NCBI RefSeq assembly: GCF_041477585.1
Contig: NZ_JBGNYA010000001.1
Span: forward strand, 682,001 to 746,000
Reading direction: 5' to 3'
From: Halobellus sp. MBLA0158
GTDB taxonomy: Archaea > Halobacteriota > Halobacteria > Halobacteriales > Haloferacaceae
DNA length: 64,000 nucleotides
Shown here: positions 1-10,484 of the stretch, one piece after another
Numbering within the stretch: the stretch's first letter is position 1
Layout: each line of letters opens with the position of its first letter
Position numbers and translations under genes: made by a program
The notes under the pieces: generated by a model
Databases searched by the model: none
What the model was told of the DNA's origin: nothing
Seen by the model: only the letters and a program-made list of their open reading frames with translations

Positions 1-756
1 ATACTGCGACCACAACCCAACCAACTCCGGTTCCAATACCACGCACCTACCAAAAGACTGGAGCGGAAAATCCGGCTCCACCTCTCCAACCAGATACCCA
101 AAGTCGGATTCCAAGAGGGTACCACAGAACTACCAGTCGGAGAAGGCGGTACTGTTGGCGGCGGATTCCTTACTACCGGATACAGCAGTTATCATCCGCT
201 CCGGTACGAGTTCGACTCACCGCCTAACAACGCTGTAGTTTCAGCTCTGCACCGACACGCTACCCAGAGCACACGGTACCTGATCCAGATCCTGTTCAAG
301 CCCGTAGCCGGCCACTCACTGAAACAGTGGCTGTGGAGAAAACGGGCGTACCACCACCGCAACTACCTGAAAAAAGAGAAAGACAGCTTGTGGAGAACGG
401 TACAGCCCACCCGGAGAGAACGAAGACAGGCACAGGAGATCGATGACAAAGCCGGCGAGCCCCGGTACCGGACCAGTATCCGGTTCCTCGTAATCAACGC
501 CGCCGACTACACACCTAGCCGAGTCAAAGAACTGGCCGGAGCCTACAACACGTTCGAAAACCCGGAAACCGGGCAATACCTTGACGCAGTCACCGTAACC
601 CGGCTCCAGCGAAAACCCTTTCTCCGGTTCGCAGAAGCCGTCGGACAACGCCGTTTCTCCGGTTGGACACGTAGCTTCCAAACCAGTGCGAAAGAACTCG
701 CAGCACTGCTCTCACTCCCAGACAAACAACAAGAAAACATCCAGTACAACCGATGA
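1..756 (+). CDS. Conjugation-associated protein, partner of the downstream ATPase (5' truncated by window)
   Basis: Reading frame 1 is open from the first base to the stop at 754-756, so the start lies left of the window. The visible 251 residues are rich in Arg, Tyr and Gln. They include a positively charged stretch around 110-145 and a segment beginning RYRTSIRFLVI near 157. The stop overlaps the ATG of the ATPase gene (ATGA), which implies translational coupling. In mobile elements, TraG/VirD4-like ATPases are often preceded by a protein of this kind that acts as a membrane or DNA-transfer partner. That role is inferred from position; I do not recognise the family with confidence. Confidence 0.7.
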   Translation: MLRPQPNQLRFQYHAPTKRLERKIRLHLSNQIPKVGFQEGTTELPVGEGGTVGGGFLTTGYSSYHPLRYEFDSPPNNAVVSALHRHATQSTRYLIQILFKPVAGHSLKQWLWRKRAYHHRNYLKKEKDSLWRTVQPTRRERRQAQEIDDKAGEPRYRTSIRFLVINAADYTPSRVKELAGAYNTFENPETGQYLDAVTVTRLQRKPFLRFAEAVGQRRFSGWTRSFQTSAKELAALLSLPDKQQENIQYNR

Positions 757-2681
757 CACCCGAAGAAGCCCAAAACCTGATCGAGAACAGCGACGCATTC
801 ACAACCACGTTCATCGGCACCCGCACCAGCAAACTCGGCGTCGAAGAAGATGTGGGTATCCCCGACGATCAACGCCGCTTACACGTCTTGACTACCGGCC
901 CTACCGGGTATGGCAAGACGCAGGTGATGATCCACGCCGCACTCCAAGACAGCTACAAGAATCGGGGATTCTGCTTCCTCATCCCGAAAGGCGGCGCTGA
1001 AAAACAAATACTCAGCAAACTACCTGAAGACCGGCTAGACGACGTACTCTACATTAACCCAGGAGAATCACCGTTACCCTCGATCAACGTCCTCCAGCCC
1101 CACACAACGGAGGAAATGACCAGGCAGCAGAAAGAGAACCAGAAAGAGATTATCGTCTCCGACCTCATCGACCTCTTCAAAAGACAAAGTGAGAACTGGG
1201 GTGACCAATTCGGCCGTGTACTCGAAACTCTGCTCCGCGCACACCTCAACCAGAACATCTACCACGGCCAAAACAAGTCACTGCTCGACGTCTTCCACTG
1301 CGTAACCCAAGACGAAGAACTCTCAGACCTGATCGATCAAACCGAGGACCCGGTAATCCGGAGACAACTGGTCCAAGTCAAAGAAGACCTGTCCAGCTAT
1401 GAAATGGGGCCGCTACAACGACGACTAAACGACTTCGTGATGCGGCCAACCATCCGAAAAATCATCTCCTCACAACACAGCGACATCAACTTCCGAAAAG
1501 CGGTCAACCAAGGCAAAATAATCTTAGTCGACATCCAAAAGGGTGAGATCGGGGAAACAGTCTCCACCCTCGTCGGCAGCATAATCATCACCCAAGTCTG
1601 GGCAGCAGCACAAAGCCGAATCACCCAAACCCCAGAGAACAGGGAACCGTTCTACCTGTACGTCGACGAACTCCAAAACTTCGGCAGCGAGGGCTCCGCA
1701 CTCGCACAAATGCTCGCAGAAGCACGAGAATACCGGCTCGGACTCTGGCTCGCCACACAATACATCTCCAACCTCGACTCCAAAACAATGCAAGAAGCCG
1801 TTCTCAACAACTGCCGCAGCAAAATCCTATTCCAACCCAGCGACAGCGAAAACAAAAACCGGCTCATCTCCACACTCAACCAAATCAGTAAAAACGAAAT
1901 CAACCAACTCGGCCGATACCGAGCCATCCTCCAAACACCGAGTAGAAAAACGCAGAAACCTGCCGTCAAAATCGATACCTACCCACCCTGGACCGGCGAC
2001 CGCGACAACATCGACGATCTCGAAGACAGGTGTTCCGTCGCCTCCGAAAACCCAGAACAGGAAACCCGGTTGAAACAGTCACTCGGAAAAGGAAACAACG
2101 CCGGCAAAGAAAAACACAGAGAACTCCTCGCCCAAGCCAAAAAACAGCTTGAGCAAAAGCGGGACGGGATTCAGGTCCAGCTACTGCACCAAGGCGCGGG
2201 TGAAGACAAACCGGATGGTAAAGTCATTCTCCCCGACGACACAGTCGCCCACCTCGAAGCCGAACACTCAACGCTGAGCAAACCCGCGAAAGTCCTCACC
2301 AACTACCTCCGCGCCGCACAACAAGGCCGAGAAACCATTTTCGTCGTCGAACAAGGAAACGCGGTCAAACTCCAGAACATCGTCGAAGAACCGGTCAACC
2401 GCCGCGGCAACGACCACGAAGACCAAGACGCAGACGGAAGCTACAGCTACTACACAAACCAGGATGGAGAAGAATTCACACAGATAGACGAACTGCAAAA
2501 CAGCGAATACCGCATCATCGAAATCCACGAAGACCAGTTAGAAATCCACAACAGCCCGGTGGAACCCGAATGCCCCGAACTCGACCACAACGACCGCGAA
2601 GATCTAGAAAACTTCTGCCTCTACCGCGAAGAAGACGGACACTGCACCGCACTCAACCAAAAATGCGTCCTCACTGAATAA
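753..2681 (+). CDS. VirD4/TraG-like conjugative coupling ATPase
   Basis: This 642-residue P-loop ATPase has Walker A GPTGYGKT at residues 49-56 and a Walker B-like strand FYLYVDELQNF near 300-310. A sensor-like stretch (LWLATQYISNL) follows, as in the VirD4/TraG/HerA superfamily. Such ATPases pump DNA through a membrane channel during conjugation. Residues after about 400 form a hydrophilic extension that ends in four cysteines with spacing roughly C-x15-C-x8-C-x6-C, a possible zinc site. No transmembrane segment is evident, so membrane attachment may come from the upstream partner, with which it overlaps by 4 nt. A winged-helix gene follows after 3 nt, making an operon. Confidence 0.85.
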   Translation: MTPEEAQNLIENSDAFTTTFIGTRTSKLGVEEDVGIPDDQRRLHVLTTGPTGYGKTQVMIHAALQDSYKNRGFCFLIPKGGAEKQILSKLPEDRLDDVLYINPGESPLPSINVLQPHTTEEMTRQQKENQKEIIVSDLIDLFKRQSENWGDQFGRVLETLLRAHLNQNIYHGQNKSLLDVFHCVTQDEELSDLIDQTEDPVIRRQLVQVKEDLSSYEMGPLQRRLNDFVMRPTIRKIISSQHSDINFRKAVNQGKIILVDIQKGEIGETVSTLVGSIIITQVWAAAQSRITQTPENREPFYLYVDELQNFGSEGSALAQMLAEAREYRLGLWLATQYISNLDSKTMQEAVLNNCRSKILFQPSDSENKNRLISTLNQISKNEINQLGRYRAILQTPSRKTQKPAVKIDTYPPWTGDRDNIDDLEDRCSVASENPEQETRLKQSLGKGNNAGKEKHRELLAQAKKQLEQKRDGIQVQLLHQGAGEDKPDGKVILPDDTVAHLEAEHSTLSKPAKVLTNYLRAAQQGRETIFVVEQGNAVKLQNIVEEPVNRRGNDHEDQDADGSYSYYTNQDGEEFTQIDELQNSEYRIIEIHEDQLEIHNSPVEPECPELDHNDREDLENFCLYREEDGHCTALNQKCVLTE

Positions 2682-3175: not shown

Positions 3176-3526
3176 TTGCTTCCGAGCACTCATCCCTCTT
3201 GGCTTTTTAACTTAGTGAGTGTTTTGGATACTAGTTATTCAGTTTCAGGGTTAGTAGGATTTGCCACGTATACTTCTGTGATTTTCTATATGTATCGCAG
3301 ATTCGATGACAATATTCAAACAGCGAGAAGTATCCCGAGAAAGAGGGAATACCAGCGAGCGTCAACTTGGTGTCTGAGAGGTTCTTTGACGTCTTTTTTT
3401 GGCTCAACAACCTATGTGTTCGCTTCATTCGGAATTCAACCACTAATTTTTAATTCTATCACACTAGCACTAATAATATGCTCTACAATAATATTATTTT
3501 TCAGTATGTTTATAACGAAGGAGTAA
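3176..3526 (+). CDS. Small membrane protein, unknown function
   Basis: This 116-residue frame starts with TTG; a GTG 36 nt further in is an alternative start. It contains about three hydrophobic segments, near residues 20-42, 62-86 and 88-112, separated by a basic loop (IPRKREYQRAS). Base composition is strongly AT-rich, even compared with the flanking element genes, which suggests recent acquisition. No family is recognised. The next gene begins 14 nt downstream, so the two may be co-transcribed. Confidence 0.5.
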   Translation: MLPSTHPSWLFNLVSVLDTSYSVSGLVGFATYTSVIFYMYRRFDDNIQTARSIPRKREYQRASTWCLRGSLTSFFGSTTYVFASFGIQPLIFNSITLALIICSTIILFFSMFITKE

Positions 3527-3539
3527 GTCTGGAGACAAT

Positions 3540-3947
3540 ATGGTTTGGGCAGAAGAATACCCAGAGACAACCAAGGAAATTGAGGATCAACTAAAAGCTC
3601 TGGGTCCACAGTTGGAAGAGTCCTTACTGGAAAGCTGTGCATACATCGCCGACGAGAGAGAATCCAAACTCGAAGAATTAGCAGGAAAGCAAGGAATTAA
3701 TCCAGATCCAAGCGGAGAATACGTACCTCAAGCAATATCATTCATCCATAGGGTGGAAGATTCAAAAAGAAATAAAGTTGGTGAAATTGAGGAGCTTTTG
3801 AATCATAACTACGATTTTGAAATGACTGAGCTTAAAAGAAATCTCGCACGGTCTATTGTCGGTTTATTGATATTAAAGAATGGGTCTGATGAGAAGCCTG
3901 ACTCTCCTATAGATGTTTTTAGACAGGAAGCCGGATTGAAAACTTAA
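3540..3947 (+). CDS. Small helical protein convergent with the uL15-like gene
   Basis: The 135-residue product is acidic and predicted to be mostly helical, with no transmembrane segment or recognised motif. Its stop codon TAA and the stop codon of the opposite-strand uL15-like gene share the four bases TTAA at 3944-3947, so the two genes meet tail to tail with no spacer. That arrangement could allow antisense control or shared termination. The codon use matches the low-GC element. No function is assigned. Confidence 0.55.
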   Translation: MVWAEEYPETTKEIEDQLKALGPQLEESLLESCAYIADERESKLEELAGKQGINPDPSGEYVPQAISFIHRVEDSKRNKVGEIEELLNHNYDFEMTELKRNLARSIVGLLILKNGSDEKPDSPIDVFRQEAGLKT

Positions 3948-5044
3948 ACCCAGTCAACTAGCCCATCAACAGTTAGCAGATACATTCTTTCCTCTTCAGC
4001 AATCCGTTGTTCTCTTAATTCAGAGCGGTCATCGTACTGAGCAATATGAAAGCGGTCGTGAATCCTGTCCAAGCCCGCAAGGACATCTTCGACTGAGTAA
4101 TTTTCAGACATACCGATTCGCAACAATTCCAACTGTTCATCGGAAGGATCCAAATCACCTAAATACGAGCCTATTAACTGCTCAAACACGGATGGATCAA
4201 AGTGATATTTATCAGCAAATTCCCGAGATCTCATTATATTGATAACGTCAATCCCGTCTAAATCATCCAAGTTTTCAGCGTGTCCTCGCATCACTTCATA
4301 GGCCAGTTCAGGATCTGCTGCTTGACCAGCCTCAACCAAATCATCAAACTCGTGAAATTCTAATGTCTCCCCTGATTCCACTTTCTCCAAATATTTATTC
4401 AGATCATCCACCTTGTCTTCATTTTTATTGCCAGAATTTTTAAAATGCCACTTGCTGATGACGCTTGCAGGCCGGGTAGCCTTCGAAAATCCTTCACTAT
4501 CCAGATTATAATAGACAAAACCTCCTGCGCCGGTTATTGTCCGCTTAGCGGATCTTGAACAATCATCTAGCTCCGCGCTAAACGAATTCATTATTTTTCC
4601 GCTGTCAAGGAGCTTCACTTGGTCAACCTCATCATACCCCTCGACGTATTCTGGCAAGTCCACTTTGTATCTCATATTATCCTCCTCTGCACCAGGAGCA
4701 GACTCTAGTTGAGAGTCAGAACTACCTTTCTCCAGAACGGCGCCGCCATCAGCTATGGGTTTAGAGTCCTCGATAATAGTGATTCCATCCACTTCCTCAA
4801 CATCTTTAAGTCCGATCTCGATCTCATAGATATCCTCATCGATCTCTTTGATCGAGACAGTCTTTGTTTTCCGGGAATTAACAGAGTTAAAGCCCTCTTT
4901 ACCCAGTGGCGGATGATTATGATGTTCGTGCTTATCTCTTCCCGCATTTCCTCGACCTCCACGATGGCCAGCTCCTCTCCGATTTTTATGTGAGCCACCG
5001 CCGTGAGTCCGACTACCGCGTTGTCGCTTCTTTTTATTCGTCAT
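3944..5044 (-). CDS. Mobile-element uL15-like ribosomal protein with a novel C-terminal extension
   Basis: The 366-residue product begins with a nearly canonical archaeal ribosomal protein L15 (uL15) N-terminus, including RGSRTHGGGSHKNRRGAG at 9-26, the Gly/Arg-rich RGGRGNAGRDKHE segment, and HNHPPLGKEGF at 42-52. Residues 62-90 and 126-180 continue the uL15 fold, with VKLLDSGKI at 143-151 and the terminal ITGAGG at 170-175. An acidic insert occupies about 92-124. Residues 185-366 form an extra acidic helical domain that I do not recognise and that normal archaeal uL15 (about 145-165 residues) lacks. Ribosomal proteins are not expected on such elements. It may enter host 50S subunits or act on rRNA; both are inference. 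Confidence 0.85.
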   Translation of the reverse strand: MTNKKKRQRGSRTHGGGSHKNRRGAGHRGGRGNAGRDKHEHHNHPPLGKEGFNSVNSRKTKTVSIKEIDEDIYEIEIGLKDVEEVDGITIIEDSKPIADGGAVLEKGSSDSQLESAPGAEEDNMRYKVDLPEYVEGYDEVDQVKLLDSGKIMNSFSAELDDCSRSAKRTITGAGGFVYYNLDSEGFSKATRPASVISKWHFKNSGNKNEDKVDDLNKYLEKVESGETLEFHEFDDLVEAGQAADPELAYEVMRGHAENLDDLDGIDVINIMRSREFADKYHFDPSVFEQLIGSYLGDLDPSDEQLELLRIGMSENYSVEDVLAGLDRIHDRFHIAQYDDRSELREQRIAEEERMYLLTVDGLVDWV

Positions 5045-5128
5045 AGATCTGTATGAGTATGAGGTCCTTGGGAATCGAACAGACCTGTCGATAATAGTCT
5101 TAAACTTATACCTTCTTTGCAGGTGTTG

Positions 5129-5221
5129 AACCAGCTACTGAGATGCGCCAGAAAGCCGAGAGATGTTAGGGAAACGAGCTTGTACTGCTCGATTAAGAAT
5201 AACATCTCCCAGCTCTTGGTT
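5129..5221. ncRNA. Candidate structured RNA or regulatory hairpin cluster
   Basis: The 387-bp stretch 5045-5431 between the divergent uL15-like and DUF4209-like genes has no convincing gene but holds nested inverted repeats. GAGATGTTA (5160-5168) pairs with TAACATCTC (5200-5208). Inside it CGAGC (5175-5179) pairs with GCTCG (5187-5191) around a 7-nt loop. Outside, AACCA (5129-5133) can pair with TGGTT (5217-5221). A second GAGATG at 5140-5145 could compete for the same partner. It could be the leader of the uL15-like gene on the minus strand or an independent RNA. Strand and function are unknown. Confidence 0.4.
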
Positions 5222-5398
5222 TGTCGTCTATACTACAGGATAATATAGTTCAGGGGAGGTACACTACATTTCGCTTGCAACGTATTCTTATAGCTGTGCT
5301 ACATTCTCCAATTGAAATTAAGGTTTGTTCGATGTATAGCTGGATCAATTCAATATGTACTCCCCGTACGGAGCGAAAGCTCTCCAGCCCACTTGGAG

Positions 5399-5408
5399 AT
5401 ATAATAAT
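5399..5408 (+). promoter_or_regulatory. TATA box of the DUF4209-like gene
   Basis: The AT-only run atataataat lies about 28 nt before the ATG at 5432, the normal distance for an archaeal TATA box when the transcript begins at or just before the start codon. Confidence 0.55.
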
Positions 5409-5431
5409 CTAAACCAACTAAAGGCGAGTAT

Positions 5432-7009
5432 ATGATCTCTGATAAGCTAGAGCAGGCACGTATCAGTCCTGAAGAGGACTATCATTTGAAGGGAGATATT
5501 CGCCGGGCGCTAAGGGCGATTGAGTCAGATAGAAATCATTCAGGCCTTATCGAGGAAGAGTTGGGTTCTCTGGATCCAGATCATCCGGTTTACCGGTTGA
5601 TCGACTCAATCAGGGTATGGGAAGGGTCCGATCACGAAGAGTTCGAGTCGGGAGTTAGAGCTGCTTTGGAGGCGTTGGATGATCTCTATGAATTAGCGTT
5701 GGAAGAGGAGTGGTACAGTGTCGCCAGCTATGCCTTGTTGAAGTCGATAGAGTATCGTGAAGGGCTCGGAGGCTTCGACGCTACTGAACAATTCGATGAA
5801 GTTCTGAATTTTTTCTATGACCATTTTTATGGAGGGTCTGAGGTTGATCTGGGCCAGTTAGGAGATCACGTTGAGAAAATGCTGGAGCACTTGGACGAAA
5901 TGGAGGAAGACAACATCAGCAAGTTATCTCGCCTCGTCGAAGATCGAGCCCAGCAGCTGCGAGAGAATAGGCAGTATATGGCCGAACGCGACTATCTCGA
6001 CTACTATATCACCATAAAGAACCACTTGGGGGAGAATGTTTCGGAAGAAGAGTCTCGTTTGGTCGAGTCGTATGAAGACGAGTTAGAGCAGAAGAGCTCT
6101 GCAAACAGTATGTTGAAAGCGGATATCTTGGAGAGAGGTGTTTCGAGATGCCAGTCTTTTCTCCCGGATGAGAAGGAGAATGAGTGGCGGCTTCGAATCC
6201 GCGAGCTCAACAAACAGGCCAGAGAGGAGATGCCAGCTACGGAACACGAAGTTGATTTGAGCGAAGATATTACCCGTATTGTCGACCACTTCAAACAGGT
6301 TCAAAGCAAGACTTCATCTTGGGAAGCCTTAGTCAACCTTCTCTACCAACCTATCGGACAAGGCAACTTCGAGGAAGCCTTGGAAAACATCGATGAAGCA
6401 CCTGCCGCCAATATGCTTCCGAAAAACGTTATCTCATCTGAGGGCGATTCTATCGGTTTTGAACCTGGTATGAATCAGGACGGAGAACGTGCACCGACCG
6501 GTTACATAGCCGGATTACGGGCTTCTAACCATACTTTGGCCGTTGCCCTACGTCGGTTGATCGATCAAAAATTGTTGTCCGAGTCAGACTTCTATATGGT
6601 CCTAACACTTCTCCCCGGAATCGCAATTCAGGACGAAGCATTTCTCACAGACACAATCATCAACCTGTTCGAAGAACGCTACGCCGAAGCTGTACACTTA
6701 GCAGTTCCCAGGCTGGAAAGCGTAACAGCCAACGTCTACGAAGAAATGGGAAAAGCAGTAACCAAAAACCAGGGCCAACTCTACCGACAAAAGGGGCTGG
6801 GCGGCCTCTTCAAACTAATCGAGGAAGATATCAGCACCAACTTCGGAAAATACCTGCAATACCGGTATACCGATACAGCAGGTCAAAACATTAGAAACCA
6901 GGTCGCTCACGGCCAAATCAAATACTCAGCAGCCAACTTCAAACAAGCCTCAACCCTTCTCTTCGACATCTATCGCACAGCTGCAAGAATCGAGGAGAAC
7001 TATAATTGA
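5432..7009 (+). CDS. DUF4209-like protein with C-terminal RNxxxHG motif (possible HEPN-type RNase)
   Basis: The 525-residue product has an acidic helical N-terminal region (1-300) and a more conserved-looking C-terminal third. The C-terminal region contains GYIAGLRASNHTLAVALRRL and, at 488-494, RNQVAHG. The RNxxxHG motif is the hallmark of DUF4209, and an R-x4-H spacing is also that of HEPN RNases found in abortive-infection and toxin systems. A role in defence or RNA cleavage is therefore plausible but inferred. It sits alone, divergent from the uL15-like gene and just before a toxin-antitoxin pair. GC is intermediate between the element and the chromosome. Confidence 0.65.
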   Translation: MISDKLEQARISPEEDYHLKGDIRRALRAIESDRNHSGLIEEELGSLDPDHPVYRLIDSIRVWEGSDHEEFESGVRAALEALDDLYELALEEEWYSVASYALLKSIEYREGLGGFDATEQFDEVLNFFYDHFYGGSEVDLGQLGDHVEKMLEHLDEMEEDNISKLSRLVEDRAQQLRENRQYMAERDYLDYYITIKNHLGENVSEEESRLVESYEDELEQKSSANSMLKADILERGVSRCQSFLPDEKENEWRLRIRELNKQAREEMPATEHEVDLSEDITRIVDHFKQVQSKTSSWEALVNLLYQPIGQGNFEEALENIDEAPAANMLPKNVISSEGDSIGFEPGMNQDGERAPTGYIAGLRASNHTLAVALRRLIDQKLLSESDFYMVLTLLPGIAIQDEAFLTDTIINLFEERYAEAVHLAVPRLESVTANVYEEMGKAVTKNQGQLYRQKGLGGLFKLIEEDISTNFGKYLQYRYTDTAGQNIRNQVAHGQIKYSAANFKQASTLLFDIYRTAARIEENYN

Positions 7010-7077: not shown

Positions 7078-7102
7078 TCATATCTAGAGGTGATTGGTTT
7101 TT

Positions 7103-7330
7103 GTGGCAAGACTAAGCGTAGACGTACCAGACGGCTTGAAACAGGATATTGAAGAGACCGCTGAGAGGAAGAACTTCAAGAACGCTTCCGAATACATCCG
7201 GCAGGCCCTCCGCGAAAAACTGCGAGAAGACAACGAACTCGACCCAGAACTGCTTCTGCGAGCACTCAAAGTCAAACAGGGCGATGTGGAAACCGTGGAC
7301 ATAGACGAAGTTATCGAGAAGTACGAGTGA
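7103..7330 (+). CDS. Ribbon-helix-helix antitoxin
   Basis: The 75-residue product begins with the strand ARLSVDVP, followed by two helices (GLKQDIEETAERK and NASEYIRQALREKL), the ribbon-helix-helix fold of CopG/ParD antitoxins. The acidic C-terminal tail (residues 45-75) would wrap the toxin. The GTG start at 7103 is preferred because the purine-rich GAGGTGA at 7087-7093 is then about 9 nt upstream, whereas the TTG at 7094 would abut it. The toxin gene follows after 7 nt. Confidence 0.8.
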   Translation: MARLSVDVPDGLKQDIEETAERKNFKNASEYIRQALREKLREDNELDPELLLRALKVKQGDVETVDIDEVIEKYE

Positions 7331-7337
7331 TTTCCAA

Positions 7338-7652
7338 GTGAAACTAACCAGCGAAGCTGAGGATGATCTCGATAACCAAGTCAAATTCGACCGGAAGAAA
7401 ATCGCACAGGAAATCAGGGACAGACTAAGCACAGATAGAGACCGAGACAATATCAGCTATATCCACAAACCCGATTTTGGCGTTGAATTCCACCGCTTGA
7501 AACTAACCAATAACGGTCTCAATCATCGAATCTATTTCGACTATCAAGACTCCGAGCCCATCGTCTTCGCAGTAAGGCACAGAGACTACGCTTACAGCCC
7601 AGAAGACCTGAAAGAGGTAGAAAACCGGCTCAACGACATAGAAACAGACTGA
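7338..7652 (+). CDS. RelE/ParE-superfamily toxin
   Basis: The 104-residue product follows the antitoxin by 7 nt and starts with GTG. Its order of an N-terminal helix pair, a basic KKIAQEIRDRL segment, then strands VEFHRLKL, HRIYFDYQ and IVFAVRHRDYAY is that of RelE/ParE toxins. The strand-rich C-terminal half with VRHRDYAY resembles the active-site face of mRNA interferases. Together with the antitoxin it would stabilise the integrated element. It cannot be assigned to RelE (mRNA cleavage) or ParE (gyrase) from sequence alone. Confidence 0.75.
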   Translation: MKLTSEAEDDLDNQVKFDRKKIAQEIRDRLSTDRDRDNISYIHKPDFGVEFHRLKLTNNGLNHRIYFDYQDSEPIVFAVRHRDYAYSPEDLKEVENRLNDIETD

Positions 7653-9090: not shown

Positions 9091-10215
9091 TTACTCGATG
9101 TTGTTGACTGCGTCGCTTTGCCGAGAGGTGCTGCTATGTTCGTACTTCTCTGTTGTTCGTTTTGATTTGTGCCTACATTGTTGTGCTGCTACTGCGAGTC
9201 CTTCTTCTTCGGCGATGTAGGTTGCAGTGCTGTGTCTGATGCTGTAGGGTGTTAGGTCGCGTTTTTCGAGGTTGAGGTTGGCTTCTTTGGCGATTTTGCG
9301 GAAGACGTCCCTAAACGAGTCTTTGTCGTAGCGGTTGCCGTACATTGTGAGCCAGAGTGCGTCTCTGCCGTCGTACTTTTCTCGTGTTTCTCGTTCGTCG
9401 AGCCAGCGTTTGAGGATGGAGCTGGTTTCTTCTTTGAGTGCGACTATCCAGTTTTCTCGGTTTTTTGAGGATTCTTCGCGTGGTATTCTTAGTACGCTGT
9501 TTTCGGTGTCGACCCAGTGGATATTGCTTCGTTTGATTTCGATGGGGCGTAGTCCTGCGTCGAGTGCGACGTGGATCATCGAGGTGTATTTGAAGCTGTT
9601 TGCACGGTTCCAGTCCTTCATTGTGACCTCGTCTTTCGGTTTTTGGAGGCGTTGGGAGAGGTAGGTTTTCCACCGTTCGCGTTCTTCAGGGGTTACACTG
9701 TTGTAGTGGGGTACACTTCCGTAGCTCATTGCGGCTTCGCGCAGCTTCTTCCTGTCTTCGCGTGTGAGGTAGTCGCGAGGGGTGTAGGTTGTACTTGGGT
9801 CGCTGTATTCGATCTGGGGTTCCCATTCAGTGTCTTTGTTGCGTGCGTTTCGTTTCCATTTGAACAGGGTTTTCGCGGCTTTCTGGTAATGGCATTTCGT
9901 ACTTTCTTTCATATCTTGCCGCGCGAGGTGCTGCATCCATTGATCAGCGTGATCCGTGGTCAGATCCTGTACGTATCGACCTTTTCTGTCCCAGATGAAC
10001 CGGTAGAAAATGTCCAATCTGTTCATCCGGTTTTTGGCGGTGCTATGGCTGTAACCCTGAGCCTTCTCCGGATTTTTACCAAGAGCAAGCATCCATTCTA
10101 CGAGTTCACGGCGATGCTCACGGTAGGTAACCTCCTGTTTCGGATTTAGATATTCGCGGGCGTCGTCAGTGACGAGCACGATTCCATCAACCTTGTTCTC
10201 AGAACTGTACGTCAT
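9091..10215 (-). CDS. Tyrosine recombinase (integrase)
   Basis: The 374-residue product has the tyrosine-recombinase catalytic set: Arg223 in ALDAGLRPIEI, the YSIR box ending at Arg327, His349 in CRHKS, and the nucleophile Tyr358 in TEKYEH. Residues 20-115 form the SAM-like core-binding domain. The ATG at 10215 is chosen because AGGAG (revcomp of 10226-10230) lies about 10 nt upstream; the GTG at 10224 is too close. It lies 198 bp from the tRNA-Thr gene that marks the element border and would catalyse integration and excision there. The AT-rich codon use matches the element. Confidence 0.92.
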   Translation of the reverse strand: MTYSSENKVDGIVLVTDDAREYLNPKQEVTYREHRRELVEWMLALGKNPEKAQGYSHSTAKNRMNRLDIFYRFIWDRKGRYVQDLTTDHADQWMQHLARQDMKESTKCHYQKAAKTLFKWKRNARNKDTEWEPQIEYSDPSTTYTPRDYLTREDRKKLREAAMSYGSVPHYNSVTPEERERWKTYLSQRLQKPKDEVTMKDWNRANSFKYTSMIHVALDAGLRPIEIKRSNIHWVDTENSVLRIPREESSKNRENWIVALKEETSSILKRWLDERETREKYDGRDALWLTMYGNRYDKDSFRDVFRKIAKEANLNLEKRDLTPYSIRHSTATYIAEEEGLAVAAQQCRHKSKRTTEKYEHSSTSRQSDAVNNIE

Positions 10216-10261
10216 AGTCGGCACTCTCCTACAATAGAAACTAGACTAGATCGCAGCCAAG

Positions 10262-10412: not shown

Positions 10413-10484
10413 AGCCTGAGGCGGGATTTGAACCCGCGCTCTCGTCCTTACCAAGGACGCGCTTTACCGCTAAGCTACCCAGGC
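10413..10484 (-). tRNA. tRNA-Thr(GGU)
   Basis: On the minus strand the 7-bp acceptor stem GCCTGGG/CTCAGGC, with one G-U pair, closes a full cloverleaf. The anticodon stem CGTCC/GGACG carries the loop TTGGTAA, so the anticodon is GGT. The T arm is GCGGG-TTCAAAT-CCCGC, and the discriminator base is U73, typical of archaeal tRNA-Thr. CCA is not encoded. The 3' end faces the integrated element, so this gene is the inferred attachment site and has been kept intact by the insertion. Confidence 0.93.

Follow-up and report, generated by a model that had tools for sequence, protein, structure and literature searches.

A second uL15 gene, fused to an orphan domain and carried by an integrated element, in the haloarchaeon Halobellus sp. 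MBLA0158

We analyzed a gene on an integrated element of Halobellus sp. MBLA0158 whose product joins the ribosomal protein uL15 to an orphan C-terminal domain. The evidence supports the view that this fusion is a true uL15 paralogue, borne by a mobile element and additional to the host copy. Preservation is perfect in its N-terminal arm, whereas the remainder of the protein is changed and carries an extra domain, which suggests that the element may plug a part of its own into host ribosomes. The host's own uL15 gene was found at C1:2845560, in the spc operon, where it adjoins the genes for L30 and S5. The fusion gene lies outside this operon (the site between L30 and SecY), and the operon copy is the host uL15. 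Since the host retains that copy, the fusion is a second one. Coordinates refer to the window, that is, the whole stretch of 64,000 nucleotides analyzed (contig positions 682,001 to 746,000), or, with the prefix C1, to the contig itself (Table 1).

Table 1. Features of the fusion gene, its surroundings and the element
Feature	Position	Strand	Remarks
uL15 fusion gene	3944..5044	minus	366 aa; genome's second uL15
N-terminal arm, residues 1-52	4889..5044	minus	conserved as in canonical haloarchaeal uL15
uL15 core, first part, residues 53-85	4790..4888	minus	diverged
Acidic insert, about residues 86-118	4691..4789	minus	placement depends on the alignment
uL15 core, second part, residues 119-180	4505..4690	minus	PF00828 match at 127-176
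Orphan acidic C-terminal domain, residues 181-366	3947..4504	minus	predicted helical, low confidence
Convergent orphan gene, 135 aa	3540..3947	plus	4 bp overlap with fusion gene
Intergenic region between the divergent fusion and PDC-S39 genes	5045..5431
Candidate defence gene PDC-S39 (PADLOC)	5432..7009	plus	weak DUF4209 match
TraG/TrwB-like coupling ATPase of the element	753..2681	plus
Tyrosine integrase of the element	9091..10224	minus
Right att repeat, 17 bp	10440..10456	plus	inside tRNA-Thr 10413-10484
Left att repeat	C1:642546-642562		outside the window

Using phmmer against H. marismortui L15 (PDB chain 1s72_L), we obtained a match of 120.9 bits overall, made up of residues 1 to 85 (domain E 3.4e-27) and 119 to 179 (E 5.4e-5). 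The Pfam profile PF00828 (Ribosomal_L27A; cut-off, 21.5 bits) gave a borderline match. On the whole protein, the profile matched at 21.1 bits, just below the cut-off; residues 1 to 179 alone reached 22.7 bits and the fusion in a genome search 23.5 bits, both above it. A uL15 family match is therefore present over both the arm and the globular core, with its PF00828 part borderline. The core is split by an acidic insert, placed at about residues 86 to 118 by phmmer and slightly differently by MAFFT; residues 92 to 124 contain 9 D/E and 2 K/R. The GC content of the gene is 45%, compared to about 69% for the host.

The initial annotation had described a uL15 domain over the first 180 or so residues, with an almost canonical N terminus and an acidic insert in its core, followed by an acidic domain that it did not recognize; it had placed this low-GC gene inside an integrated element and not in the ribosomal operon. 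All of these claims held in our analysis. It had also considered that the gene might be the only uL15 in the genome, or that no uL15 match would cover residues 62 to 180. Instead, we found the host copy in the spc operon and, within that range, the phmmer match at 119 to 179 and the PF00828 match at 127 to 176.

Candidates for extra uL15 copies elsewhere were rejected. Double matches in other genomes (20 genomes checked) were split alignments, and two further matches (L004 and L005) were both canonical spc-operon genes. A match on a Natronorubrum plasmid belonged to a complete spc operon. This 828-kb "plasmid" of Natronorubrum bangense, which carries the operon at NZ_CP031306.1, 255826-264242, is a chromid or a mislabelled piece of chromosome, given the ribosomal genes on board. 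In a uL15 tree, the fusion sat on a very long branch with no firm placement, and its grouping with the host genus was not rejected (p-AU 0.144).

The C-terminal domain lies in an open frame and is acidic, with 45 D/E compared to 19 K/R. It is predicted to be helical by single-sequence AlphaFold2 models, whose confidence is too low to support a fold search (mean pLDDT, 39 and 46). Over residues 276 to 366, the codon usage-based coding score of this frame was not the best of the six, and it is the sole long open frame there in that reading direction. We found no relatives of the domain in Pfam, PDB sequences, plasmids, or viral contigs, and none of the full-length fusion in NCBIfam, PADLOC, PHROGs, or phages. 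Searches of IMG/VR, phage, and plasmid sequences also returned no relative of the fusion, which is a singleton within the collections searched. Two overlapping sets of haloarchaeal genomes (394 and 171) yielded only a weak signal resembling aldehyde ferredoxin oxidoreductase (AOR). The first match had an E value of 3.3e-5 and occurred in 1 of 394 genomes, and comparison by hhalign with the four AORs of the host itself gave 23.2, a score that the best of 100 shuffles also reached, so an AOR origin is unsupported. Profile searches of this domain, as proposed in the initial annotation, yielded no firm relative, and the same fusion, which it had suggested looking for on other haloarchaeal elements, was not found in the genome, plasmid, and viral collections searched.

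We then compared the fusion with an alignment of 43 canonical haloarchaeal uL15 rows, one sequence being present in duplicate (G270 and L004). The arm kept 40 of 40 near-invariant columns. Conversely, only 14 of 24 were kept in the core (residues 53 to 179), 10 being lost. The identity of the fusion to canonical copies was 0.85 in the arm, compared to 0.87 among the canonical copies themselves; the corresponding values in the core were 0.32 and 0.60. The uL15 part, which the initial annotation had wanted compared with the host copy, is therefore canonical in its arm and diverged in its core. Every arm residue of the fusion is also seen in canonical copies, none being private to it. Synonymous change in the arm is nearly saturated (pS, 0.90 to 1.0), pN is 0.085 to 0.15, and GC3 is 0.35 in the fusion gene versus 0.90 in the host uL15 gene. 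Together, these values indicate that the arm has long been held by selection and was not recently captured, and they argue against a recent origin in a GC-rich haloarchaeon, whether through capture or gene conversion. An AT-rich donor with a canonical uL15 of its own could share part of the arm's history, but the diverged core speaks against this. The pattern argues for a core that has been relaxed or re-purposed while the arm stayed under long purifying selection.

According to PMC2386862, the extension of L15 (residues 1 to 57) makes contact with both 23S rRNA and the loop of L4. The conserved arm coincides with this extension, which threads into 23S rRNA, and the divergence falls in the globular part. 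Arm conservation thus offers a functional clue: uL15 constraint appears to be retained in the rRNA-buried arm, with the globular core eroded. These data weaken two other explanations. The gene could be a relic, a captured uL15 gene accidentally fused to other sequence and now decaying, as might be expected from the loss of 10 of 24 near-invariant core residues and from a singleton whose C-terminal domain has no relatives. We consider this quite unlikely, because 366 codons are open and because an arm perfectly kept through nearly saturated synonymous change is unlike a decaying gene. Alternatively, the fusion could be a resistance copy that replaces host uL15 and protects the E-site region from a translation inhibitor; in the mammalian ribosome, His39 of uL15 is adjacent both to the cycloheximide site and to the CCA end of the tRNA in the E site (PMC10094517). 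However, the arm forms that region and has no residue unseen in canonical copies, whereas the novelty lies in the core and C terminus, making this explanation very improbable.

According to our preferred model, to which we give about an even chance, the fusion is cargo of the element that docks in some 50S subunits in the place of host uL15 and presents a new surface module that specializes or guards translation. The arm would still thread into host 23S rRNA during 50S assembly, and some subunits would thereby contain the fusion protein in place of host uL15. Together with the acidic insert and the orphan domain, the eroded core would then form a new interaction or effector module on the subunit surface, which may specialize or guard translation in cells carrying the element. 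Docking is inferred from the constraint on the arm: the 40 of 40 columns, the low pN, the match to the L15 extension, and the host copy elsewhere all count for it, and phage ribosomal proteins that enter host ribosomes provide a precedent. The 10 near-invariant core residues lost count against it, as they might impair the fit into the 50S subunit. Also weighing against the model are the coding score over residues 276 to 366 and, within the collections searched, the singleton status of the fusion and the absence of relatives of its C-terminal domain. Among the roles first proposed (replacement, tethering, and toxin or defence), docking plus tethering fits best. We propose more tentatively that the protein is a ribosome-docked effector, in which the native uL15 arm anchors the element's surface domain on the 50S subunit, and that such element-specific ribosomes sense infection or change translation.

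The element is a continuous low-GC block of about 49.9 kb, spanning roughly C1:642546 to 692456. Each end is marked by an exact copy of a 17-bp repeat located inside tRNA-Thr; the two copies are 49,894 bp apart, and the element seems to bring along the 3′ half by which the tRNA-Thr gene is restored. It encodes a tyrosine integrase, a TrbC-like pilin, a VirB4-like ATPase, a TraG/TrwB coupling ATPase, and two Orc1/Cdc6-type proteins; because of this content, we refer to it as a putative integrative conjugative-type element. An open frame of 3,624 aa with a signal peptide-like start also lies inside it (C1:660823-671697, minus strand). The fusion gene, about 5.4 kb from the right end, sits in a low-GC cargo stretch with the coupling ATPase and wHTH genes on one side and the integrase on the other.

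The PDC-S39 gene adjoins the fusion gene in divergent orientation. Relatives of PDC-S39, at 22 to 72% identity, were present in 30 of the 394 haloarchaeal genomes (its own included), and none of 20 loci examined had a uL15 gene next to them. In one related locus, a similar wHTH gene and a PDC-S39 fragment are accompanied by different cargo, which points to a cargo hotspot. The cargo position beside a candidate defence gene and the differing content of the related locus count for the preferred model. A role of the fusion in defence or element maintenance is a guess from this cargo region and its PDC-S39 neighbor, and what the protein would do to translation, and how it would relate to defence, are likewise guesses from the neighborhood. 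Downstream of PDC-S39, genes for a ribbon-helix-helix protein and a 104-aa protein (7094-7652) form a toxin-antitoxin-like arrangement.

This neighborhood also bears on the possibility that the fusion is an assembly poison. Its intact arm would compete to occupy the uL15 site, and 50S maturation or translation would be stalled by the added domain and the altered core, for example as an abortive defence during infection. The combination of intact arm and eroded core would suit such a toxin, as would the candidate defence neighbor. However, the fusion had no PADLOC match and no antitoxin-like partner was seen, the 135-aa orphan being convergent rather than co-directional; we regard this explanation as unlikely. 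No relatives of the 135-aa protein were found in 374 genomes. It is one of two co-directional orphan genes (3215-3947; the other, of 103 aa, apparently encodes a membrane protein) convergent on the fusion gene.

Upstream of the fusion gene, a TATA-like stretch could be read by eye at about 5098-5110 on the minus strand. The same intergenic region contains a strong hairpin (5142-5219; 86-nt fold, -34.2 kcal/mol, z -6.15, 15-nt arms), which had no Rfam match and no second copy in the genome and was not common to PDC-S39 relatives. Being upstream of the TATA-like stretch, it is probably outside the uL15 leader. We rejected the hairpin as an rRNA-mimic leader since no convincing 23S match was found; its best local match, one of several comparisons, was the 23S-5S spacer (score 37, compared to a shuffle maximum of 34). 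The arm might instead have been reused off the ribosome in an RNA or DNA binder, for example a regulator. It is very basic (14 K/R in 52 residues), and a strong hairpin upstream of the gene would agree with such a role. We find this improbable, however, as retention of all near-invariant arm positions is what the same 23S rRNA site would lead one to expect, and the hairpin lacks a convincing likeness to 23S rRNA.

If docking is correct, the ribosomes of the host are rewired by a conjugative-type element that supplies its own tailored form of a core protein embedded in rRNA. The range of element-encoded ribosomal proteins would then include more than the peripheral ones that are easily exchanged and would reach past viruses to conjugative-type elements of archaea. 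Ribosome specialization by mobile elements would also become testable in haloarchaea, a genetically tractable group. Ribosomal proteins on mobile elements are known in kind; uL15, or this architecture, is unreported in the literature searched, which was of open license and hence gives no proof of absence. Phages encode bS21, bL12, and bL9, and phage-encoded ribosomal proteins enter host ribosomes (PMC6375957, whose text does not contain "L15"), and haloarchaeal tailed viruses encode L21e, the sole ribosomal protein named in the relevant passages of PMC8651126. The fusion resembles these virus-encoded proteins in that a mobile element carries a copy of a ribosomal protein, that purifying selection acts on this copy, and that it possibly replaces the host version; we found defined element bounds, a host copy elsewhere, and an arm pN far below pS. 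Unlike them, it is carried by a conjugative-type element and fused to an orphan domain, and uL15 has a deeply buried extension, in contrast to the easily exchanged proteins that viruses tend to carry. PDC-S39, as classified by PADLOC, shares the cargo region but is a separate, divergent gene. Compared to L15 of Haloarcula marismortui (PDB 1S72, chain L; PF00828), the fusion has an arm of the same kind and a recognizable core, but it is a second copy on an element, with a diverged core, an acidic insert, and a 186-residue orphan C-terminal domain.
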